Shown one piece after another: positions 98-24,414 of a stretch of DNA of 26,317 nt. The notes under the pieces are model-generated. The model worked only from the letters and a program-made list of their open reading frames with translations, did no database searches and had not been told where the DNA came from. The position numbers and the translations under genes were made by a program. The DNA is taken from the IMG/VR virus record IMGVR_UViG_3300011115_000383, positions 1-26,317 of that record, one strand, 5' to 3'. Source of the DNA: a virus. The first letter of the stretch is position 1, and the number at the start of each line of letters is the position of its first letter.

Positions 98-2005
98 TTA
101 GATCTCGCAGCCGCCAGAAGCTGTGCAGGCCAGAGTCTGAGCACCTTCTACGTTGTCAGTGCCCTCAACCAGTTTATCCCAGTCAATACCCAAGGGCATA
201 GCAGCAACCATTGCATGATACTCTTCCTCAGTCATGGCCTCATAAGGAGCTTGTCGGTATGTCCCGCCATCCATCGGTAAGAAGCTCACACCTGTAATCT
301 CATCAAAGTTATTCCACACCCAAGCCCCAACTTCAGGCCACTCATTCTCGTTCACTGAGATAGTCACTGAAGGCTTATGCTCACAGTAGTGTCGCTGGAA
401 CAAGAGCCACAAGCGCAGGTGCTTAATAGCATTCAAGTCCTCACGCAGTACAGCACCCTTCTCAACTCGCATTGGGAAGCTAAAGATAGTGGTGCTATCA
501 GGCTTCATCACACAAGCCTCTGAAGGAAACCCTTGAGCTTTCAAGAAGTCAGTCAGAGGGTCTTTGTTATCAGACCTGACACGACGAATAAAGTACTGAC
601 TGTGCTGAGGGTGGATACCACTAGCAGTGCCTGTAAGCTGAGAGACAGTCCCTTCTGGCTTAATGGCAGTGATGGCAGCACTGCGATTAATACCGATAGC
701 GTCAGCAAACTCAGCGTTAGTAGCAATAGCAACATCTTTAAAGTCCTCTAATATCATAGGTAAATAAGCATCATCAGGGTTATTTAGCAAGGCATTGTCC
801 AAGATACCAGTCATAGACACACCCAGCAAACGCTCATCTTCAGTGTTTGTCTGCCACACCTTACGAAGATATGGGAAGTTAGTCATTGTCGATTGAAAAG
901 TCCCCAGAATAGTAGCCAAGCGCACCTTATTCCGTAGAGTATCCACACAATCATCGCTCCGCACAATAACAGAAGACAGATTACAAAATTGATAAGGTCT
1001 AAGGATAATCTCACTGCAAGGGTTTGTGCCCCACTCTTTACCCAATTCCCTACGTCCACTCTTAGCTGCTTGAAGTTCACTTGCATAACGATTAAAGATT
1101 CCTCGCTCTCCAGAATGTGATTCATAAATACTAGACCACTCACGCATGAACTTACCTACCTCAGGCTTAACTTCGTAGATGGCACTGTTGTTAGCCAAAG
1201 CACGTTGACCATTACCGTCCCACCAGTTACCAGCTTTAGCATGAGCCATACGGTCATCACCTAAGTCTGACAGAGAGATCATTGCAGATCTACGAACCCC
1301 ACCTACGACAACTACCTCGCCCACCTTGCAGAGGATGTCATGCGCTTCAAGTGAAGTGAGCTTACGGCCCGTTGCCCCTTTGAATTTAGCAGTGACGTAA
1401 TGGAATAAGGATACAAGAGGTTCTGGCCCTGATGCTCGTCCACCAAAAGTCTTAAGTCTTGCACCTGCTGGACGTACACTTGAGACATCCCACTTTGGAA
1501 TCTCACCTGCATATAGCAAGGCAATGACTTGTCGTAAGGCTTTAGCCCATCCCTCTTTGGAGTCCTTAACATTAATGACAGTGCCACTATTGTACAAATC
1601 AACTGGAATCTCAGGTAACTTAGATACATACTTTTGCTCCACACTAAAGCCCACACCAGTTCCGCATAACAGAATATACATGGCCTCATCAAAGGCTTTA
1701 GGGTCATCAATGGGCAGGTATGAACAGTTATAACCAGCTACGTTCTGTCTCTCTAAAGCATCACCAGCTGTCATAATGCTACGCATGGAAGGCATCACTT
1801 CTAAGTTAGTCACAGCACTCTGCAGTTGGTTACGCAATTCGTTACTTAGCAAGTAGTTATGCTTCTCTTGCAAGTGCTTAGTCATGAAGTTAAAGTAACG
1901 GTCTACAGTCTCAGGCCAATGCTCTCTCCGGCCTTTATCATCCAAGTAGCGAGAGTAGCGGCTCTTGCCAATGTATTCTTGGTATGGTGTCATTAGTTTA
2001 CGCAT
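98..2005 (-). CDS. nrdJ: Ribonucleoside-triphosphate reductase, adenosylcobalamin-dependent (class II, monomeric)
   Basis: 635 aa. Class II RNRs reduce ribonucleotides to deoxyribonucleotides using a radical made from adenosylcobalamin, so they need neither oxygen nor a separate beta subunit. The NPCSEI motif gives Asn328, Cys330 (thiyl radical) and Glu332. Cys94 (GYNCSYLP) and Cys341 (QFCNLSS) fit the active-site redox pair. The 11-residue step from Cys330 to Cys341 equals the step between Cys408 and Cys419 in the Lactobacillus leichmannii enzyme. The C-terminus carries Cys627 and Cys633 (ACTASGGCEI), the tail pair that is re-reduced by thioredoxin or glutaredoxin. No NrdB gene is visible nearby, as expected. 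The start is preceded by AAAGGA. It lies just downstream of the 52-aa and DUF3310 genes and just upstream of an AP2/HNH-like gene. The frame is uninterrupted, with no intron or intein. At 635 aa it is shorter than the about 740-aa Lactobacillus enzyme. Confidence 0.93.
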   Translation of the reverse strand: MRKLMTPYQEYIGKSRYSRYLDDKGRREHWPETVDRYFNFMTKHLQEKHNYLLSNELRNQLQSAVTNLEVMPSMRSIMTAGDALERQNVAGYNCSYLPIDDPKAFDEAMYILLCGTGVGFSVEQKYVSKLPEIPVDLYNSGTVINVKDSKEGWAKALRQVIALLYAGEIPKWDVSSVRPAGARLKTFGGRASGPEPLVSLFHYVTAKFKGATGRKLTSLEAHDILCKVGEVVVVGGVRRSAMISLSDLGDDRMAHAKAGNWWDGNGQRALANNSAIYEVKPEVGKFMREWSSIYESHSGERGIFNRYASELQAAKSGRRELGKEWGTNPCSEIILRPYQFCNLSSVIVRSDDCVDTLRNKVRLATILGTFQSTMTNFPYLRKVWQTNTEDERLLGVSMTGILDNALLNNPDDAYLPMILEDFKDVAIATNAEFADAIGINRSAAITAIKPEGTVSQLTGTASGIHPQHSQYFIRRVRSDNKDPLTDFLKAQGFPSEACVMKPDSTTIFSFPMRVEKGAVLREDLNAIKHLRLWLLFQRHYCEHKPSVTISVNENEWPEVGAWVWNNFDEITGVSFLPMDGGTYRQAPYEAMTEEEYHAMVAAMPLGIDWDKLVEGTDNVEGAQTLACTASGGCEI

Positions 2006-5714: not shown

Positions 5715-5903
5715 TTAATGCAGCTCTTGTGACGGGTGAGCTGTATTACCCGATGCCAGATCTTCTAAGTACATAAGTGCAGATAATAGCACAGTGTATA
5801 CCTCTTCAAGATCTAGATTCTCTCCTATCTTAACCTTGAAAGTTTCACCTTCAACGCTAAATAGTATTTGATTCTTATCAATGTGTTTCACGCCAGTTTG
5901 CAC
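5715..5903 (-). CDS. Hypothetical protein, about 62 aa
   Basis: A small protein (HIDKNQILFSVEGETFKVKIG, then LDLEEVYTVLLSALMYLEDLA) with a beta hairpin followed by a helix. Its 5' end overlaps the polymerase 3' end by 26 bases. The start is uncertain: a GTG at 5903 has GGGGAG about ten bases upstream, a TTG at 5906 is adjacent, and a later GTG at 5891 also fits. No family recognised. The context suggests a replication accessory protein, but nothing in the sequence proves that. Confidence 0.65.
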   Translation of the reverse strand: MQTGVKHIDKNQILFSVEGETFKVKIGENLDLEEVYTVLLSALMYLEDLASGNTAHPSQELH

Positions 5904-7608
5904 CAATCTTGTACTCCCCGTCTAGTGGACAACGAAGCTTGAAATGCTCACCAGCTTCAACGATACTTTGCTTTGCAGCCTCACCTACTATTGTAGCATA
6001 CATCTTAGGAACTTCAAGCTGAAATTCATCATGGACATTAGCTACCAGCTTCACAGGCCACTTGTTAGCCTTAGTCTTGTCGTGAAACAATACCAAAGCC
6101 TTTTTCATCACAATCGCCCCAGCCCCTTGAAGGAGCGAATTGAGAGCTGCGTGTTCGGAGCGCACCCATATCTTACGACCATCAAGCCCCGGTACAAAGC
6201 CCTTACCCGCATATCTACTAACCGTATTTCTAAGACGTTGTAAGGCGGGTGTATTTTTAAGAAAGGCATCGATAAGTTTCTGTCCCGCTTTAGCATTACC
6301 ACCGACAATGGAACCAATCTTAGCTGGCCCTGCACCGTATAGGAATGCGTAAATAAAGGTCTTAGCTTGATCCCTCGTTTCAAGGCCTGCAGCTTTCTGG
6401 TTCTGCGTGTGAACATCCGTCCCATCTTTAGAGGAGCCTTCAGTGACTGTCTTAACATAGTTATCATCTTTCATATAATGTGCAAGCATACGCAGCTCAA
6501 GGCCACTAGCGTCACAGCCAACCAATACGTTACCGCTTTCCACAGTCCAACACTCTCTGCACTCCGGCCCATAAATACTCCCAGCATTAGGAATCTGCGC
6601 CATGTTAGGACTACTGTGTGTCATCCTACCAGTTACAGCTCCGTTCGTTATAACCTTACCATGCACTCTACCGTCCTTACCTACAGACTCTAACCAGCTT
6701 TCAATCTGAGCTACACGTTTCTGTAGCATCAGGTAGGTAGCAATCATCTGAGCCTCAGGAATGTTAACAACCTTAGACAGCACAGACTCATCGACAATAG
6801 CCTGACCCTTCTCAGTAAACACCTTAGGTTTCCACCCTAGTTCCATCAGCTTCTCTCCAATCTGCTTTCTACTTCCGGGATTGAAAGTATCAACGCAGTC
6901 TTTGATGGGCTTTCCACTTGTCTTGTGAAACCTAGGTGTGACTGTTGGAGGCCATCTCTCTTGCATCTGCTCATAGATTCCTGCCATCTTTCCTTTGATG
7001 TCAGCAAGTAAACAGGTTGTATAGGCTTGGTCAAGTTTGAATCCATGTCGTGTTTGTTCCTCAATGATAGCAGCTACCTTATGTTCAAGGTCAAGGCTTT
7101 CTTGTGAAAAGTCTTTCGTAGTGAGTTCATTAGTAAGATGCTTATAAAGATCACAAGTGACCTCAACGTCCCTAATGCAATAATACTCCAGAAGAGCCAT
7201 GTGAGGAATGTTGAAGCACTCACCTTTGTATTCCTCTCGTCGTTCCATTAGCCATGTCCATACCCTTGCGTAGTCAATCTTATTCTTCCCCAACCTTGTT
7301 CCCCATGCGTCTAAGCTGTGCCCGTTCTCTATCGAGGGATCTAGCAGTCTTGAGGCTATCAGTGTATCGAACACTTGGTTCAAGCGAATCTTCGTAGTCC
7401 AGTGCCGATTCAATATCGGGAAATCGAAGCCTATTCCGTTGTGGGCTACTATCAACGTAACGTCCTTTAAATACGCCACGAGGCTGTCTGCTGCTTTCCA
7501 TACAAATACTTCTCCAGTGTCAATGTCCTTAGTGACTACCATCCAAATCGTGTTGTGATCTAGCGTAGTTTCGCAATCCAGTACGATGCGCTTCCCTGTA
7601 AGTTTCAT
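5878..7608 (-). CDS. DNA polymerase, family A, T7 gp5-like with 3'-5' exonuclease
   Basis: 576 aa from the ATG at 7608 (AAGGTGA upstream; a GTG two codons earlier is less likely). The exonuclease domain occupies about residues 1-160: Exo I LDCETT (Asp11, Glu13), Exo II VAHNGIGFDFP (Asp62), Exo III YYCIRDVEV (Asp147). Polymerase motifs: A at GCDASGLELR (Asp366), B at TRDQAKTFIYAFLYGAG (Arg412, Lys416, Tyr420, Tyr424), C at VHDEFQLEVP (His526, Asp527, Glu528). Tyr420 aligns with E. coli Phe762 and T7 Tyr526. The protein is about 130 aa shorter than T7 gp5, so the thioredoxin-binding thumb insertion is probably absent. It is the replicative polymerase, acting with the primase-helicase and SSB encoded nearby. 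Confidence 0.97.
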   Translation of the reverse strand: MKLTGKRIVLDCETTLDHNTIWMVVTKDIDTGEVFVWKAADSLVAYLKDVTLIVAHNGIGFDFPILNRHWTTKIRLNQVFDTLIASRLLDPSIENGHSLDAWGTRLGKNKIDYARVWTWLMERREEYKGECFNIPHMALLEYYCIRDVEVTCDLYKHLTNELTTKDFSQESLDLEHKVAAIIEEQTRHGFKLDQAYTTCLLADIKGKMAGIYEQMQERWPPTVTPRFHKTSGKPIKDCVDTFNPGSRKQIGEKLMELGWKPKVFTEKGQAIVDESVLSKVVNIPEAQMIATYLMLQKRVAQIESWLESVGKDGRVHGKVITNGAVTGRMTHSSPNMAQIPNAGSIYGPECRECWTVESGNVLVGCDASGLELRMLAHYMKDDNYVKTVTEGSSKDGTDVHTQNQKAAGLETRDQAKTFIYAFLYGAGPAKIGSIVGGNAKAGQKLIDAFLKNTPALQRLRNTVSRYAGKGFVPGLDGRKIWVRSEHAALNSLLQGAGAIVMKKALVLFHDKTKANKWPVKLVANVHDEFQLEVPKMYATIVGEAAKQSIVEAGEHFKLRCPLDGEYKIGANWRETH

Positions 7609-7723
7609 ATTCACCTTTTAAGTCTTCATAGTGATGGATAAGCAACTGATACTTCTCTTGCAGTTCATAGTACTTACTTTCCAAATCAAGCATTCTACCA
7701 GCTATCTTATCTATGTCAATCAT
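7529..7723 (-). CDS. Small coiled-coil protein, 64 aa, unknown function
   Basis: A strong heptad-like stretch (AGRMLDLESKYYELQEKYQ, then LLIHHYEDLKGEYETYREAH) predicts a coiled coil over most of the protein, so it probably oligomerises. The ATG follows GAGGTAAACAGA. Its last 27 codons lie out of frame over the start of the polymerase gene, and its start overlaps the end of the 84-aa gene by 8 bases. No enzymatic motif is visible. Confidence 0.7.
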   Translation of the reverse strand: MIDIDKIAGRMLDLESKYYELQEKYQLLIHHYEDLKGEYETYREAHRTGLRNYARSQHDLDGSH

Positions 7724-8113: not shown

Positions 8114-8316
8114 TTCTGTTGTTCCTTTGAAATAGGTTCATAATCTAATCCTAATTCACGAGCATTATCAGCCATTTTGTCTAAAGCATCCTGAGCTTTA
8201 TCAAACTGAAAGTCACGTTCTTTGTCACCCTTGTCACGACCAAATATCATGTCCCATCGAGCTAAATACTCTTCCTGAGCTACACTGAAAGGTCTAGGTG
8301 TACTTCCTTTACTCAT
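8110..8316 (-). CDS. Small phage protein, 68 aa (MSKGSTPRPFSV family), unknown function
   Basis: The ATG at 8316 is preceded by a near-perfect ribosome-binding site (AGGAGGAGACATT) embedded in the last codons of the primase-helicase. The longer frame to 8376 is not needed. The N-terminus MSKGSTPRPFSVAQEEYLAR followed by WDMIFG matches a widespread small phage family of unknown function. The rest is charged and helical. Stop and start overlap (ATGA) with the primase-helicase, giving tight co-expression. Confidence 0.82.
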   Translation of the reverse strand: MSKGSTPRPFSVAQEEYLARWDMIFGRDKGDKERDFQFDKAQDALDKMADNARELGLDYEPISKEQQK

Positions 8317-9953
8317 AATGTCTCCTCCTGCATCTCCACCATGCGTCCAGTTTCCATGTTGTACTTTAACGTACACGCTGGCCCTGTATATCCGTTATAC
8401 CTATTCTTAGCAACAGAGATTTTAGTCTGGTGACGTTCTTGCTCATTGTCAGCCATACTGTTTCGTTCGAGCGTGATAACAGCATCGGAGAGTTGAGCAA
8501 TAGCTCCAGATCCTCGCAGCTGAGATAGTGAAACTGATTGCCCGTCTTCGTGTCCTGCATTGCCTTGTGGCCTCCGTAAGTGTGATACACAAATTAATGT
8601 AATCTCAAGCTCCTGCACCAATGTCCTGAGTTTGGTCATCATGTTATCAATAGCCTTACGCTCATCTCCATTGTCTTGACCAGATATAACAATACTAATG
8701 TGGTCGAGAAAGATAACCCTGCAATCGCAAGCTTTAGCCATGTATCGGATTCTGTTGGCAATGTTGTCAACGTCACTGCTACCGAAATGGTCAAAGAGAT
8801 AAACACGATTAGTACCAAGTGTTGCATCGAAAGCATCTTTAAGTTCCTTTTCAGTGGTAGGTGTGTCAGGCAAATGCAATAGCTTGTTAGCGTATAAGCT
8901 CATGATACTTCTAGCTGTCTTACGAGTTGACTCTTCAAGAAACAAGCCACCAACATTCCACTTGGTAGTGTTCAGTATATTGAACAATATCTCTCGCAGG
9001 AACTGACTCTTACCCAAGCCTGAACCTGCTGTGACTGTGACTAACTCTGAAGGTCTGATACCGTACAGGAGCTTATTCAAGCCCTTCCAAGGGTACATAG
9101 CCTCAGCCTTAGCCTCAGGTTTAATGACTTCCTCCCACAGTGAGGCTGCATTGATGATACCATCAGGAATGTACACCTCAGCTCTCCACCACTCATTCAC
9201 GAACTCTTTGGTAGCACCTGCAATGAGGTAGTCACAGGCATCTTTGTAGCCACTCAAGTGCTTCACAATCTTAGCCTTGTTACCGAACAGTTCAGCTACC
9301 TCTTTGGAGGCCTTCTTACCCGGTTCATCAGCATCGAAGCAGATCACAATGCTATCGAAGGAGTTGAGCCACTCATACTGTGCCTTGCAGTCCTTTAAAG
9401 CGGCCTGTGCACCGTTCCTGACTGATACTACAGGGTAGAGGCTACCATTCATCTGAAAAGCTGCTAGAGCGTCAAGTTCTCCTTCAGTGATGGTGACTGC
9501 CTTGCCGCCAGCGTGAAAGAGCTGTTGACCGAAAAGCCTAGCATTCGTGAATGTTCCAAGAATGCTGAAAGTTTTGTCTGCCACTCTTCTAAGTTTTGCG
9601 GCAACAACTCCTCCGGTATCGTCAGTGTAAGGATAAAAGTGCTGTCCATTATCTTGTGTAACTCCATATTTCTCACAGGTTTGAAGGGTAATACCTCTGT
9701 CGGGTATCGATTTAACATTTCCTCGTAGTTCTAACATAGGTGATGTTACCGTGGTTGATTTTCTGTTAACTGCATCTTGCATCACTGACAGTTCATCTGC
9801 ATCAGTTTCATTGTAGTAGGTATTGCATGAGAAACAATACGTGTGATTGTCATCGTATAAGCCATTGGCATCTGAGCTACCACAGGCATCACAGGCTATA
9901 TGCTTAATGAGTTTAGACTCAATCTTAGGCTTGCGTACTAGGTTCAGCTTCAT
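8313..9953 (-). CDS. Primase-helicase, T7 gp4-like
   Basis: 546 aa (T7 gp4A is 566). N-terminal zinc-binding domain with Cys21, Cys24, Cys40 and Cys43, which recognises primer start sites. TOPRIM primase core at about 150-225, with TEGE (Glu157) and FDADEPG (Asp207, Asp209). RecA-like hexameric helicase from about residue 285: Walker A GSGLGKSQ (310-317), Walker B VIFLDHIS (Asp417), motif VSHLRRP (His458) and SLSQLRGSGAIAQLSD. The C-terminal tail is acidic (MQEETL), the usual polymerase contact in T7. The ATG follows AGAGGAGCTACTG. It unwinds the fork and lays primers for the polymerase two operon positions downstream. Confidence 0.97.
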   Translation of the reverse strand: MKLNLVRKPKIESKLIKHIACDACGSSDANGLYDDNHTYCFSCNTYYNETDADELSVMQDAVNRKSTTVTSPMLELRGNVKSIPDRGITLQTCEKYGVTQDNGQHFYPYTDDTGGVVAAKLRRVADKTFSILGTFTNARLFGQQLFHAGGKAVTITEGELDALAAFQMNGSLYPVVSVRNGAQAALKDCKAQYEWLNSFDSIVICFDADEPGKKASKEVAELFGNKAKIVKHLSGYKDACDYLIAGATKEFVNEWWRAEVYIPDGIINAASLWEEVIKPEAKAEAMYPWKGLNKLLYGIRPSELVTVTAGSGLGKSQFLREILFNILNTTKWNVGGLFLEESTRKTARSIMSLYANKLLHLPDTPTTEKELKDAFDATLGTNRVYLFDHFGSSDVDNIANRIRYMAKACDCRVIFLDHISIVISGQDNGDERKAIDNMMTKLRTLVQELEITLICVSHLRRPQGNAGHEDGQSVSLSQLRGSGAIAQLSDAVITLERNSMADNEQERHQTKISVAKNRYNGYTGPACTLKYNMETGRMVEMQEETL

Positions 9954-10999: not shown

Positions 11000-11188
11000 T
11001 TATATATCCTCACATTCTAGAGTTAGTTTAAAGTGTAAAGCTTCACCTACATCGTTCATGGGTTCCCTCAGTGAGTCTAAAATCTTAGCCAGTTCATCAT
11101 CTGACATGATGCAACTAAAGTCAAGCTTTAAAACCTTGCGTTTATCTTCACCTGAGTAACCTACAATAGAGCCTTTTGTGTATAACAT
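11000..11188 (-). CDS. Hypothetical protein, 62 aa
   Basis: MLYTKGSIVGYSGEDKRKVL, then a short helical region (DDELAKILDSLREPM) and a beta strand (EALHFKLTLEC). No recognised motif. A strong purine-rich ribosome-binding site (AAGGGGG) precedes the ATG. It sits between two other small genes in the early cluster. Confidence 0.68.
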   Translation of the reverse strand: MLYTKGSIVGYSGEDKRKVLKLDFSCIMSDDELAKILDSLREPMNDVGEALHFKLTLECEDI

Positions 11189-13482: not shown

Positions 13483-13707
13483 TTATGCTCCTTTTGCATA
13501 GTTACGAAGTGACTTGATATATCCTAGCTTGTCTGAGTGGCTTTGTACGTTACCCTGCCAAGCGACTACTACAATGCCTGAGCGTTTAACACCTAGGAAC
13601 CTGCCTTTGTTGGCCTTAGTGCCTGCGTAGACCATCTGCCCAGCCTGCACGTGCTTAAGCAGGTCAACAGGTACTGCCCAGATGTCGAAGATTGATTGAT
13701 ATTTCAT
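13483..13707 (-). CDS. Hypothetical protein, 74 aa
   Basis: MKYQSIFDIWAVPVDLLKHV, then QAGQMVYAGTKANKGRFLGV and KRSGIVVVAWQGNV, ending YIKSLRNYAKGA. The central VQAGQ-x-VYAG and GVKRSGIVVVAW segments read like a small SH3-like beta barrel. No named family. AAAAAGGCAACACAATC precedes the ATG, another instance of the recurrent leader in this cluster. The start overlaps the upstream stop by four bases. Confidence 0.72.
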   Translation of the reverse strand: MKYQSIFDIWAVPVDLLKHVQAGQMVYAGTKANKGRFLGVKRSGIVVVAWQGNVQSHSDKLGYIKSLRNYAKGA

Positions 13708-13862: not shown

Positions 13863-13909
13863 ACTGTTTACCTCGGTTTGTTGTTGCGATGTATGTATTA
13901 TTAGTTTTA

Positions 13910-13929
13910 AACCTTACATGAACCTTACA
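13910..13929. repeat. Direct repeat AACCTTACA, two copies 11 bp apart
   Basis: AACCTTACA at 13910-13918 and again at 13921-13929. The 11-bp period places both copies on the same DNA face, as expected for paired protein-binding sites. They lie between the candidate weak leftward promoter and the first leftward gene. Confidence 0.45.
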
Positions 13930-14051
13930 AATTACAGTTTATTCATACTTATTCTCACAAGGTGTATGAGTTTTCTTCATAGTGGCTGAAAGCCTCTAGA
14001 ACGGCCTCTGAGAGCTTTTCAGTGTTATGGTCACTAACCCCTTCGCAAGTG

Positions 14052-14171
14052 TTATCCACACCACAACTAGTACTTATCCACAATTTCAACTCTTATATAA
14101 GACTTTGCCTGTGTATAACTGTATACCCCTACCAGTACTTTATCCACAGCTTGTGTATAACCTGTGTATAA
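14052..14171. promoter_or_regulatory. Cluster of six DnaA boxes (origin or regulatory region)
   Basis: Three perfect TTATCCACA boxes read on the plus strand (14052-14060, 14074-14082, 14140-14148) and three TTATACACA boxes read on the minus strand (14118-14110, 14160-14152, 14171-14163). All six match the bacterial consensus TTATNCACA within 120 bases. DnaA is the host initiator protein. A very AT-rich block, the usual unwinding element, follows some 600 bases to the right and is not directly adjacent. The boxes could serve as a DnaA-dependent origin, a transcription control site, or a DnaA sink. Confidence 0.75.
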
Positions 14172-14254
14172 CTCTGATGGATACCCTTCCGAGTATTTCT
14201 AAGGGTAAACCCTAGGTGCTTCAGAGGGTGCTACATAGCCCTGCACATATCCTA

Positions 14255-14273
14255 AATGCGAATGATTCTCATT
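14255..14273. promoter_or_regulatory. Fur-box-like palindrome
   Basis: Read on the minus strand the 19 bases are AATGAGAATCATTCGCATT, close to the proteobacterial Fur consensus (alternating AATGATAATCATT-type units). The inner TGAGAAT-C-ATTCGCA fits the 7-1-7 model with three mismatches. Fur represses iron-uptake genes when iron is plentiful. Chance similarity in AT-rich DNA cannot be excluded. Confidence 0.35.
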
Positions 14274-14466
14274 AACGTTTCATGCAAGTATGCTAAGTGA
14301 GTACTTACTAACTTAAACTCATAAGTGTACATATGACTTTACTGACTTGCCAGTCATTAGCGTGACTGCGAAGTAAGCACTAACTAACTTCATAGGGGGG
14401 AGGGTCATGGCTTGTGAGTTACTTTTGCGGGAGCCTACAAAGTACACAAAAAAGTAAATATAGACC

Positions 14467-14495
14467 TTGACAGACACCAGAGCTAACTGTATGAT
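14467..14495 (+). promoter_or_regulatory. Sigma70 promoter P1, rightward
   Basis: Perfect -35 TTGACA (14467-14472), 17-base spacer, -10 TATGAT (14490-14495; five of six). Transcription should start near 14502. It lies 440 bases ahead of the small terminase gene with no gene between, so it feeds the long structural operon through host RNA polymerase. Confidence 0.72.
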
Positions 14496-14623
14496 AAATA
14501 TAGGAAAAGTATTACAAATAAGGGTCAACCAGACACCCTAGAAAAGGGGAACTACAAAGTTCATATAAGTGTGACTGGAATCACATGAATAGTAAAATAT
14601 ATGTGTACTAAGACAATAAAAGC

Positions 14624-14652
14624 TTGACAAATAGACAAAAGTATGATACAAT
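14624..14652 (+). promoter_or_regulatory. Sigma70 promoter P2, rightward
   Basis: Perfect -35 TTGACA (14624-14629), 17-base spacer, -10 TACAAT (14647-14652; five of six) with TG one base before the -10. Start predicted near 14659. It is 157 bases downstream of P1, making a tandem pair, and leaves a leader of about 275 bases before the small terminase gene. Confidence 0.75.
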
Positions 14653-14709
14653 ATTCTTTATAGCAAATAATTGTGTTTACTAAGTAGCCTGACCCCACTA
14701 CTAAGTTAA

Positions 14710-14770
14710 GACTTCTAAGGCTAAGATGTATAGCCGAAGGCGTACACCTTGGAAAGGGAACATAGAAGTT
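14710..14770 (+). other. Predicted three-way-junction RNA in the structural-operon leader
   Basis: GACUUCUA (14710-14717) pairs with UAGAAGUU (14763-14770), eight pairs including one G-U. It encloses GGCUA/UAGCC (14719-14723 with 14731-14735) and AAGG/CCUU (14737-14740 with 14747-14750). A further small hairpin AGUAG/CUACU (14683-14687 with 14698-14702) precedes it; its loop contains CCCC, which could contact GGG at 14756-14758. No known riboswitch class is recognised. Confidence 0.45.
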
Positions 14771-14872
14771 AAAACACACTTAAATTAAATATTATAAGTA
14801 AATTAATATTAATTACTTATATAAGTATCTTATAATGTTAATGTCTATGAATCGTATATGTAACTTTAAAGT
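14761..14872 (+). promoter_or_regulatory. Leader module of the structural operon, shared with the replication operon
   Basis: CATAGAAGTTA (14761-14771) and GTAACTTTAAAGT (14860-14872) occur here in the same order and transcription sense as in the leftward leader at 10554-10480. Between them is AT-rich DNA with ACTTATATAAGT, a perfect 12-base palindrome at 14816-14827. The distance from the second motif to the first gene is also similar (about 62 versus 71 bases). Confidence 0.55.
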
Positions 14873-14934
14873 ACTTTAAGTGCTTTATATGTCTGGTATT
14901 AATATGTCTCCCATTTAAGGATAAAGACTTTAGA

Positions 14935-22311: not shown

Positions 22312-24414
22312 ATGGCTTTATCAGCTGCAATGCAGTGGGCTTTAAACAACGGCATGACTGAAGCTGATGTTTATAAGAACATCAATGACTTTTTAGCTAC
22401 AAGCCCTTCTGCAGCTCAAACACAAGCGCAGATGGCTCAGTATGGTATTTCACCTGAAGATGTAGCTGCTGCAACAGGTGGTAAATCAGGCGGTATGCTC
22501 AGTGGTAACGTCTTAGCAGGTGCAAGCTGGAATAGCCTTAACGAAACACTTGGTAATCAACTTACAGAAGCTACAGGTCAGTCAACAGCCAATTATGCTG
22601 TAGGTGGTGCAACTACAACTGATACTTTAAACCAGCTTAATACATTCTTATCAGGTGGTGGTCAGTTTGACCCTAATGCCACAGTGTTCCTACAGACTGG
22701 TGGTGTAGATTTTATTCAAGGTGTAGATAAGAATACTGTTAAAGATAACATTAATCAGATTGTTAAGACTCTAGGCGATCAAGGTGTTAATGTTGTTCTG
22801 ACAGGTTCACCATATGCAGCTTCAATTCAAGATGTACAAACTAATAACTTTAATCCTGAAGTTGACCAGATCTTTAAAGACATTGCCAAAGAAAACTCTA
22901 ATGTAGCTCTGGTTGGTACTCAAGGTGAGATCCTCCAGAATAAAGGCTTACTTGTAGATGCTCTGCACACCAATGCTGAAGGTACTGCAGTCTACAATCA
23001 ATCTGTTATTGATGCTTTATCTCAGTTTAAGAATGATGTCCCTGTAAGTACACCTCAAGCTATTGCTCAAGTACAGCAAACAAATAAGGTAATTCCTACA
23101 GCTCGTGGTACTGTTATTGAAGGCGATAATATTGACCAACAGATTGCTGGTGTTCCTCAGTCTGTCTATGAGACACGTGTAGACCCTAACAATAAAGCTA
23201 ACTGGCAGACTGTAAACCCTAAGACAGGTGAAGTTATCAACTCAGGTACTTTTGCAGGTGGTGGCGATCAAGGTTTGTTAGCTGCTGCAAGACCAGTAGT
23301 TGCTTTAGCAGCAAGTGTCCTTGGTGCTCCATACTTAAGTAACTTGATTGCAGGTTCTACAGGATTAACTGGTTCAGCTTTAGCAGGTGCTACAGGTGCA
23401 ACCATTGCAGGTGGTTCAACTGCTTTAACAGGTGGTAGTACTGAAGATACATTGAAAGCTGCTTTATTAGGTGGCGGTGGAGGCTTCTTAGGTAGTGAAG
23501 TTAATAACTTATTGTATGATTCCACAGCTGCTGCTGACTTAGCTGCAGGTTTAGATCCTAGATATGGTGGTTCTAATCCTCTGTATGGTACTAAATATGA
23601 TGCAGCTATGTCTGACTTACTCAGCTCACCTGAGTCTCAGAAAGCACTAGCAGATTATATCAATGGAACAGCAACAACAGCAGCAACAGCTCCAGTAGCT
23701 GTGAGTACTCCAGTTACAGATGGTGGAGCAGTTAACATTACAGGTGCTGCAGCTCCAGCTCTGAATGCTGGTGGTTTACTCAGTAGTGTTGTTGATCCAA
23801 GACTTACTGTAACAGCTCCTAAAACTCCTCAACAAGTTGACCAAGCTACCTTGTCTTTAATTAATAGTCAATTAGCAGCTAACGCAGGTACACCAGCTAA
23901 TTTAGCTAATGTTGAAGTTACAGCTAAGAACCTATCAACCACACCAACAGATGCTGCCAGTATCCTTGCAGCTACTTTACCAGCTTTACCAAACATACCA
24001 GCTGCAGTAACACCTGCACCTACACTTCCAACTCAAACAATTACAGCTCCTAAGACTCCTTCAGTTGGTGATACTTTAGCAACACTACCAGCAACAATGT
24101 TGTCTCCTGCAGTAACAGATACTTCTGCAACTACTCCAGCTAAGAAAACTAATGAGTTAGGCTTAACAGATGAACAGATGTTAAAGTTACTTCAAGCTGG
24201 ATTAGGTTTGTTTGGAACTTTGGGAGCTACTTCAGCATTATCCAACAGAGGAACTACAGTTCCAGTAGGTTCCTTGCCTACACAGACTCCTCCAATGTAC
24301 ACAGATGATTACTTCACCAGAGTACAGCAGAACTATAACAGCCTTCTTCCAGCAGTCCCTCGTGATGTCGCCTCGCCATTACGTGACTGGTACACTTCAC
24401 AATACGGAGCTTAA
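22312..24414 (+). CDS. Large virion protein with SGNH-hydrolase-like domain and glycine/alanine-rich segment
   Basis: 700 aa. About residues 62-245 resemble an SGNH/GDSL hydrolase: block I-like LAGASWNS (usual GDS is GAS), block II-like YAVGGATTTDTL, block III-like LQTGGVDF, and block V-like DALHTNAEG with the Asp-x-x-His pair. These enzymes remove acyl groups from carbohydrates or lipids. A glycine/alanine-rich hydrophobic stretch follows at about 320-390 (LLAAARPVVALAASVLGAP, ALAGATGATIAGGS), which could insert into membranes. Then comes a long Ala/Thr/Pro-rich low-complexity part and a compact C-terminus (DYFTRVQQNYNSLLP, DWYTSQYGA). Plausibly an internal or tail virion protein released during infection; function not proven. 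AAAAGGCGAATAAGT precedes the ATG. Confidence 0.72.
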   Translation: MALSAAMQWALNNGMTEADVYKNINDFLATSPSAAQTQAQMAQYGISPEDVAAATGGKSGGMLSGNVLAGASWNSLNETLGNQLTEATGQSTANYAVGGATTTDTLNQLNTFLSGGGQFDPNATVFLQTGGVDFIQGVDKNTVKDNINQIVKTLGDQGVNVVLTGSPYAASIQDVQTNNFNPEVDQIFKDIAKENSNVALVGTQGEILQNKGLLVDALHTNAEGTAVYNQSVIDALSQFKNDVPVSTPQAIAQVQQTNKVIPTARGTVIEGDNIDQQIAGVPQSVYETRVDPNNKANWQTVNPKTGEVINSGTFAGGGDQGLLAAARPVVALAASVLGAPYLSNLIAGSTGLTGSALAGATGATIAGGSTALTGGSTEDTLKAALLGGGGGFLGSEVNNLLYDSTAAADLAAGLDPRYGGSNPLYGTKYDAAMSDLLSSPESQKALADYINGTATTAATAPVAVSTPVTDGGAVNITGAAAPALNAGGLLSSVVDPRLTVTAPKTPQQVDQATLSLINSQLAANAGTPANLANVEVTAKNLSTTPTDAASILAATLPALPNIPAAVTPAPTLPTQTITAPKTPSVGDTLATLPATMLSPAVTDTSATTPAKKTNELGLTDEQMLKLLQAGLGLFGTLGATSALSNRGTTVPVGSLPTQTPPMYTDDYFTRVQQNYNSLLPAVPRDVASPLRDWYTSQYGA

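Follow-up and report, generated by a model that had tools for sequence, protein, structure and literature searches.

The question raised by this locus is why consensus DnaA boxes should be clustered in the control region of a phage with T7-type replication genes: whether they recruit the host initiator for origin firing, tie transcription to host growth, or titrate DnaA to stop host initiation.

DnaA boxes and their neighbours in the divergent control region

The window, meaning the whole 26,317-bp stretch of DNA analysed, is a 26-kb virus record of a freshwater phage with relatives of up to 41 kb, and the box cluster lies inside its divergent intergenic region of approximately 1.07 kb (13863-14934). 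Leftward of this region are the replication genes (T7-type primase-helicase, family A polymerase, exonuclease, endonuclease I and ribonucleotide reductase), and rightward are the structural genes (terminase, portal and capsid). Among the latter, a 700-aa protein (22312-24414, plus strand) has a GDSL lipase/acylhydrolase domain at its N terminus (Pfam E 7e-8). The label "T7-like" in the original prediction holds for the replication genes only; by portal and polymerase affinity, the closest matches are HMO-2011-type and pelagiphage/roseophage podoviruses. On the other hand, the absence of a phage RNA polymerase was borne out, as none of the 12 relatives of 30-41 kb searched had a match to T7-type RNA polymerase (PF00940), while LUZ100 scored as the positive control. 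The main features are as follows, where types A to D are the cassette types described in the next section.

98-2005, minus strand: ribonucleotide reductase with a B12-dependent (class II) insertion domain
5878-7614, minus strand: family A DNA polymerase
8313-9953, minus strand: T7-type primase-helicase
13483-13707, minus strand: 74-aa early protein, phrog_21585; within the family, in type-A members only
14052-14060, plus strand: candidate DnaA box 1, TTATCCACA, exact match; position and spacing kept in type-A relatives
14074-14082, plus strand: candidate DnaA box 2, TTATCCACA, exact match; near-invariant in the type-A alignment
14089-14104, no strand: palindrome ACTCTTATATAAGACT, core TCTTATATAAGA, between boxes 2 and 3; matches the SdhR operator core
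14110-14118, minus strand: candidate DnaA box 3, TTATACACA, exact match; also in the type-A alignment
14123-14137, plus strand: first copy of the iteron-like repeat, ATACCCCTACCAGTA, located between boxes 3 and 4
14140-14148, plus strand: candidate DnaA box 4, TTATCCACA, exact match
14152-14160, minus strand: candidate DnaA box 5, TTATACACA, exact match
14163-14171, minus strand: candidate DnaA box 6, TTATACACA, exact match
14181-14195, plus strand: second copy of the iteron-like repeat, ATACCCTTCCGAGTA; relatives have more copies after it at 21-bp spacing
14202-14213, no strand: palindrome AGGGTAAACCCT (AGGGTWWACCCT); 19 occurrences in control regions, none outside them in the relatives
14254-14280, no strand: Fur-box-like site AAATGCGAATGATTCTCATTAACGTTT, a motif only; variants include TGAGAATGATTCTCA
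14467-14495, plus strand: sigma70-type promoter-like TTGACA-17-TATGAT, rightward
14624-14652, plus strand: sigma70-type promoter-like TTGACA-17-TACAAT with TG before the -10, rightward; conserved in types A-D
14780-14880, no strand: AT maximum of the window (92% over 60 bp and 86% over 100 bp), a possible melting region approximately 600 bp from the boxes

Exact matching to TTATNCACA recovers the six perfect-consensus boxes originally predicted at 14052-14171, three as TTATCCACA on the plus strand and three as TTATACACA on the minus strand, and a scan of the whole window adds just two more in 26 kb (at 11177 and 15550, both on the minus strand), while shuffles give an expectation of 1.4 for the whole window. 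In 2000 dinucleotide-preserving shuffles, the maximum was two boxes in any 120 bp, which upholds the claim that such clustering is unlikely by chance. When one mismatch is allowed, the window holds 39 sites against 34 expected, i.e., the chance level. A 62-aa ORF (14027-14215, plus strand) spans the entire array and is probably not a gene. The analysis thus supports a box cluster that is real, non-random and conserved, and the boxes are candidate DnaA sites to which host DnaA would be expected to bind.

A second host protein is suggested by the palindrome that separates boxes 2 and 3. SdhR, a GntR-family regulator, has the operator TCTTATGTCTTATATAAGACATAAGA (PMC4494728), whose central 12 bp are identical in the window; the extended form is found in type-C relatives only, where the longer CTTATGTCTTATATAAGA stands at the equivalent place. 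In the control regions, the palindrome occurs 49 times, compared with 0 in 611 kb elsewhere, and TCTTATATAAGA is invariant between boxes 2 and 3 in the alignment of all type-A phages, the pattern-fetched members being invariant by construction. In Burkholderiales, RSTCTTATATAAGASY is present in 19 of 200 genomes, mostly upstream of the genes for isocitrate lyase (aceA), aconitase B (acnB), isocitrate dehydrogenase (icd), prpE, acetate-CoA ligase (acs) and ATP synthase (atp), and the core also separates mdh from a divergently oriented GntR/UTRA regulator. The regulator's name and these gene contexts suggest that SdhR controls TCA-cycle genes. The palindrome is therefore a candidate SdhR operator, assigned to SdhR in the hosts by the published motif and gene context. 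It is unlikely, irrespective of the role of the boxes, that the palindrome is instead an unrelated structural or phage-factor site sharing the 12-bp core by coincidence; the matching does cover only the core and flanks, but the extended CTTATGTCTTATATAAGA at the equivalent place in type-C relatives argues for an operator, and the type-D motif GGCAAATATTGCC, searched in the same way as a control, gave mostly coding-region matches in Burkholderiales and was rejected as a further host operator. By itself the palindrome is not diagnostic, because many of its matches in viral contigs are unconnected with DnaA boxes. A separate observation concerns one Burkholderiales genome (G054, locus L287), in which a DnaA box lies a few bases from the palindrome upstream of an atp operon, the sole such pair among 399 Burkholderiales genomes.

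Beside the array, the Fur-like motif occurs 21 times in control regions and 0 times in 611 kb elsewhere; the window site, compared by eye with the 7-1-7 / 19-bp inverted repeat GATAATGATAATCATTATC, agrees at 14 of 19 positions and resembles a Fur box as a motif.

Cassette types among relatives and spread of the core

By terminase similarity, 80 relatives were gathered from viral contigs, and the type counts refer to the 41 distinct control regions of this terminase-selected set, window included, which come from related phages and are not independent events. At least two boxes at fixed spacings are present in 30 of the 41, so the cluster is conserved in relatives, and the arrays mostly lie 1.1-1.4 kb upstream of terminase. 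Type A (19/41) has boxes and palindrome as in the window, with box spacings of 22, 36, 30, 12 and 11; type B (11/41) typically has four direct boxes spaced 35, 19 and 19; type C (7/41) has palindromes without a box array; and type D (4/41) has neither boxes nor palindrome. In type D (L015, L016, L023 and L053), the DnaA boxes give way to three GGCAAATATTGCCG-like palindromes spaced exactly 21 bp apart. DnaA is therefore not obligatory for the family, because the 11 of 41 regions without a box array (types C and D) carry other site arrays; the terminase next to the region is the same in these types, and C and D examples also show the conserved promoter directed rightward. One left flank is common to A and C and another to B and D, with different cassettes swapped at the same place. 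Box density is 2.58 per kb in 64 control regions, a figure biased by the 23 that were pattern-fetched, compared with 0.057 per kb elsewhere. The original prediction described the boxes correctly and lacked the palindrome, the repeats, the Fur-like box and the replacement of boxes in 11 of 41 relatives. TGTCG-N5/6-CGACA-type inverted repeats and GTGAGTACTTAC repeats are also enriched in many control regions (L001, L003, L011, L015 and L016).

The 15-bp iteron-like repeat, ATACCC-N5-AGTA, is carried by 18 of the 19 type-A phages; one copy separates boxes 3 and 4, up to three more follow rightward, and the most frequent spacing is 21 bp (12 pairs). The repeat occurs 51 times in control regions against 13 in 462 kb elsewhere. 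Types B and D have their own repeats at exactly 21 bp (two and three, respectively). Tandem phasing of approximately 20-22 bp beside boxes is thus seen in many type-A and B relatives and in DC31, while the window has just two copies (14123 and 14181), 58 bp apart.

DC31 (PQ492658) is an isolated 76-kb Limnohabitans phage, culturable with its host Limnohabitans sp. DCL3, with a box-13-box-palindrome-box core that is 77% identical to the window over 88 bp. Its module comprises five boxes and the palindrome, along with AT-rich repeats of 16 bp and six adjoining 20-bp iterons; GTGACTG was rejected as a repeat shared with the DC31 iteron core, being only weakly enriched. The intergenic core is the same, but DC31 is long-tailed and otherwise nearly unrelated to the window, the protein overlap being a distant primase-helicase (28%), an exonuclease, a 46-residue match near the window end and the 74-aa early protein (54%). 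The DC31 paper does not mention DnaA (PMC12195039). In total, the box-palindrome-box core was found in 82 stretches of viral contigs, carried by window-like phages, DC31-related contigs and others without genes in common with either.

The 74-aa early protein occurs in 15 of 19 type-A phages and in 0 of 22 of the other types, as well as in DC31-like phages and distant phages of Nitrincola, Pseudomonas and Enterobacteria. Its predicted fold is confident (pLDDT 89.5), with no PDB match. As a candidate initiator it was set aside, since it has no Pfam domain and no fold match and occurs in phages without box clusters.

Possible roles of the array

Based on the sequence comparisons presented above, the array is a real, conserved and exchangeable control cassette with candidate host-protein sites. 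As to its role, we tentatively prefer, at a confidence a little under even, an exchangeable iteron-type origin and early-control cassette that lies upstream of the leftward replication genes and would recruit host DnaA. Host DnaA would bind the six consensus boxes and, together with a further protein on the 21-bp-phased repeats, would form a nucleoprotein complex that opens the DNA. The opened DNA would then allow loading of the phage T7-type primase-helicase and family A polymerase, such that DnaA-based opening would replace the RNA-polymerase-primed start of T7. Through the SdhR-type operator in the array, host carbon and energy status could influence either the complex or the neighbouring early promoter, and through the Fur-like box beside it, host iron status would probably do likewise. 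The binding of DnaA, SdhR and Fur, the origin activity and the order of events are what we infer from these sites.

Several observations favour this role: the six boxes, their conserved spacings, the 21-bp-phased repeats and the DC31 iterons; the lack of a T7-type RNA polymerase in the 12 relatives, yet with a T7-type primase-helicase and polymerase; and, as further support, the identity of the palindrome with the SdhR operator core found before TCA, acetate and ATP-synthase genes in Burkholderiales. Among the three roles originally proposed, it is the iteron-like repeats and the DC31 iterons that tip the balance towards an origin, short of proof. Counted against it are the 11 of 41 box-less control regions with the same terminase and conserved promoter; the array region of 61% AT, with no AT-rich melting stretch abutting the boxes; the two widely separated repeat copies of the window; the failure to identify a cognate initiator near the array, given that the 74-aa protein co-varies with type A yet occurs without box clusters; and the fact that some repeats are imperfect palindromes, a form that also fits operators. 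GC skew, proposed earlier as a check, lends no support and was rejected as origin evidence, as the same minimum is shared by box-less sister phages and the skew in DC31 follows gene direction.

The nearest alternative, possible but on the unlikely side, is a transcription switch only, in which DnaA, SdhR and Fur upstream of a leftward early promoter would make early transcription depend on the growth, carbon and iron status of the host, while replication would start elsewhere or by transcription. Both SdhR and Fur regulate transcription, the module stands upstream of leftward genes in DC31 as it does in the window, and cassettes with different sites are exchanged at one place (one left flank for A/C, another for B/D). 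Moreover, DnaA stimulates the lambda pR promoter (PMC7466680), and host PhoB controls cyanophage genes (PMC10976474). Nevertheless, six high-affinity boxes with 21-bp-spaced repeats exceed the needs of a promoter, the iterons of DC31 look classical, and no clear leftward sigma70 promoter was found beside the array.

A bolder form of the origin cassette, which we consider rather doubtful, is a mobile element passed among unrelated freshwater Burkholderiales phages. An element of approximately 250 bp would read DnaA (cell cycle), SdhR (carbon and energy flux) and Fur (iron) and would decide the start of replication, and sister phages would swap in cassettes for other regulators.

It is improbable that the array serves as a DnaA sink, in which many phage copies, each with six boxes, would titrate DnaA or alter its nucleotide state in the manner of datA, halting host initiation and freeing resources. 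E. coli has approximately 200 DnaA monomers per origin, and DnaA-box plasmids titrate DnaA measurably, so that some tens of six-box phage genomes could bind most of it (PMC5835720); the candidate sites for SdhR and Fur might likewise act as decoys. Titration, however, does not call for constant spacing or a set position within the control region, and outside that region these genomes have few boxes (0.06 per kb). The switch and sink models are not exclusive.

Finally, a phage-captured copy of host oriC is very improbable and was rejected: the boxes are dense and of consensus type and the DC31 host, Limnohabitans, is a Burkholderiales genus, but no full module was found in the bacterial genomes searched, with the box-palindrome-box core in 0 of 84,980, a best match to a sequence model of the module among 250 Burkholderiales of 20.6 bits (a partial one, with a single box and palindrome before an atp operon), and mostly one or two exact boxes at the dnaA loci of Burkholderia relatives. 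The DnaA query with which these Burkholderiales loci were fetched served as bait only. A Blast comparison of the module with plasmids likewise gave no match.

Comparison with known systems

No earlier description of the cassette was found in the literature (open-access text searched). In iteron plasmid origins (RK2 oriV, P1 oriR, pSC101 and F oriS), consensus DnaA boxes lie beside repeats phased at approximately two helical turns. Many type-A and B relatives and DC31 similarly have a box cluster adjoining phased repeats, but no plasmid-type Rep was found here, a candidate host-metabolism operator lies within the array, and the phage has its own T7-type replication genes. In E. coli, datA combines DnaA boxes with an IHF site. 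The array resembles datA and DARS in joining DnaA boxes to the site, here a candidate one, of a second host protein (PMC5835720), and differs from them in spacing, in the nature of the second site and in being phage-borne.

In lambda ori/pR, an early replication region of a phage is likewise linked to DnaA, there by its responsiveness to host DnaA (PMC7466680). Lambda, however, relies on O-protein iterons and P-dependent loading of host DnaB, whereas the window has six consensus boxes and a phage primase-helicase. As with the cyanophage PhoB boxes, the window appears to represent a virulent phage with candidate operators for host regulators (PMC10976474); cyanophages use one regulator with operators at individual genes, whereas the window gathers candidate sites for several regulators in one central control region.

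The cassette is thus a variant on known DnaA-box/iteron origins and on phage control regions responsive to host regulators. It is a defined 120-bp element that occurs in numerous freshwater phage contigs as well as in the isolated DC31, and it bears on how T7-type replication genes operate in phages that lack an RNA polymerase of their own. Should the candidate host-regulator sites prove functional, the replication decision of the phage would be wired to host growth, carbon and iron through one exchangeable cassette.
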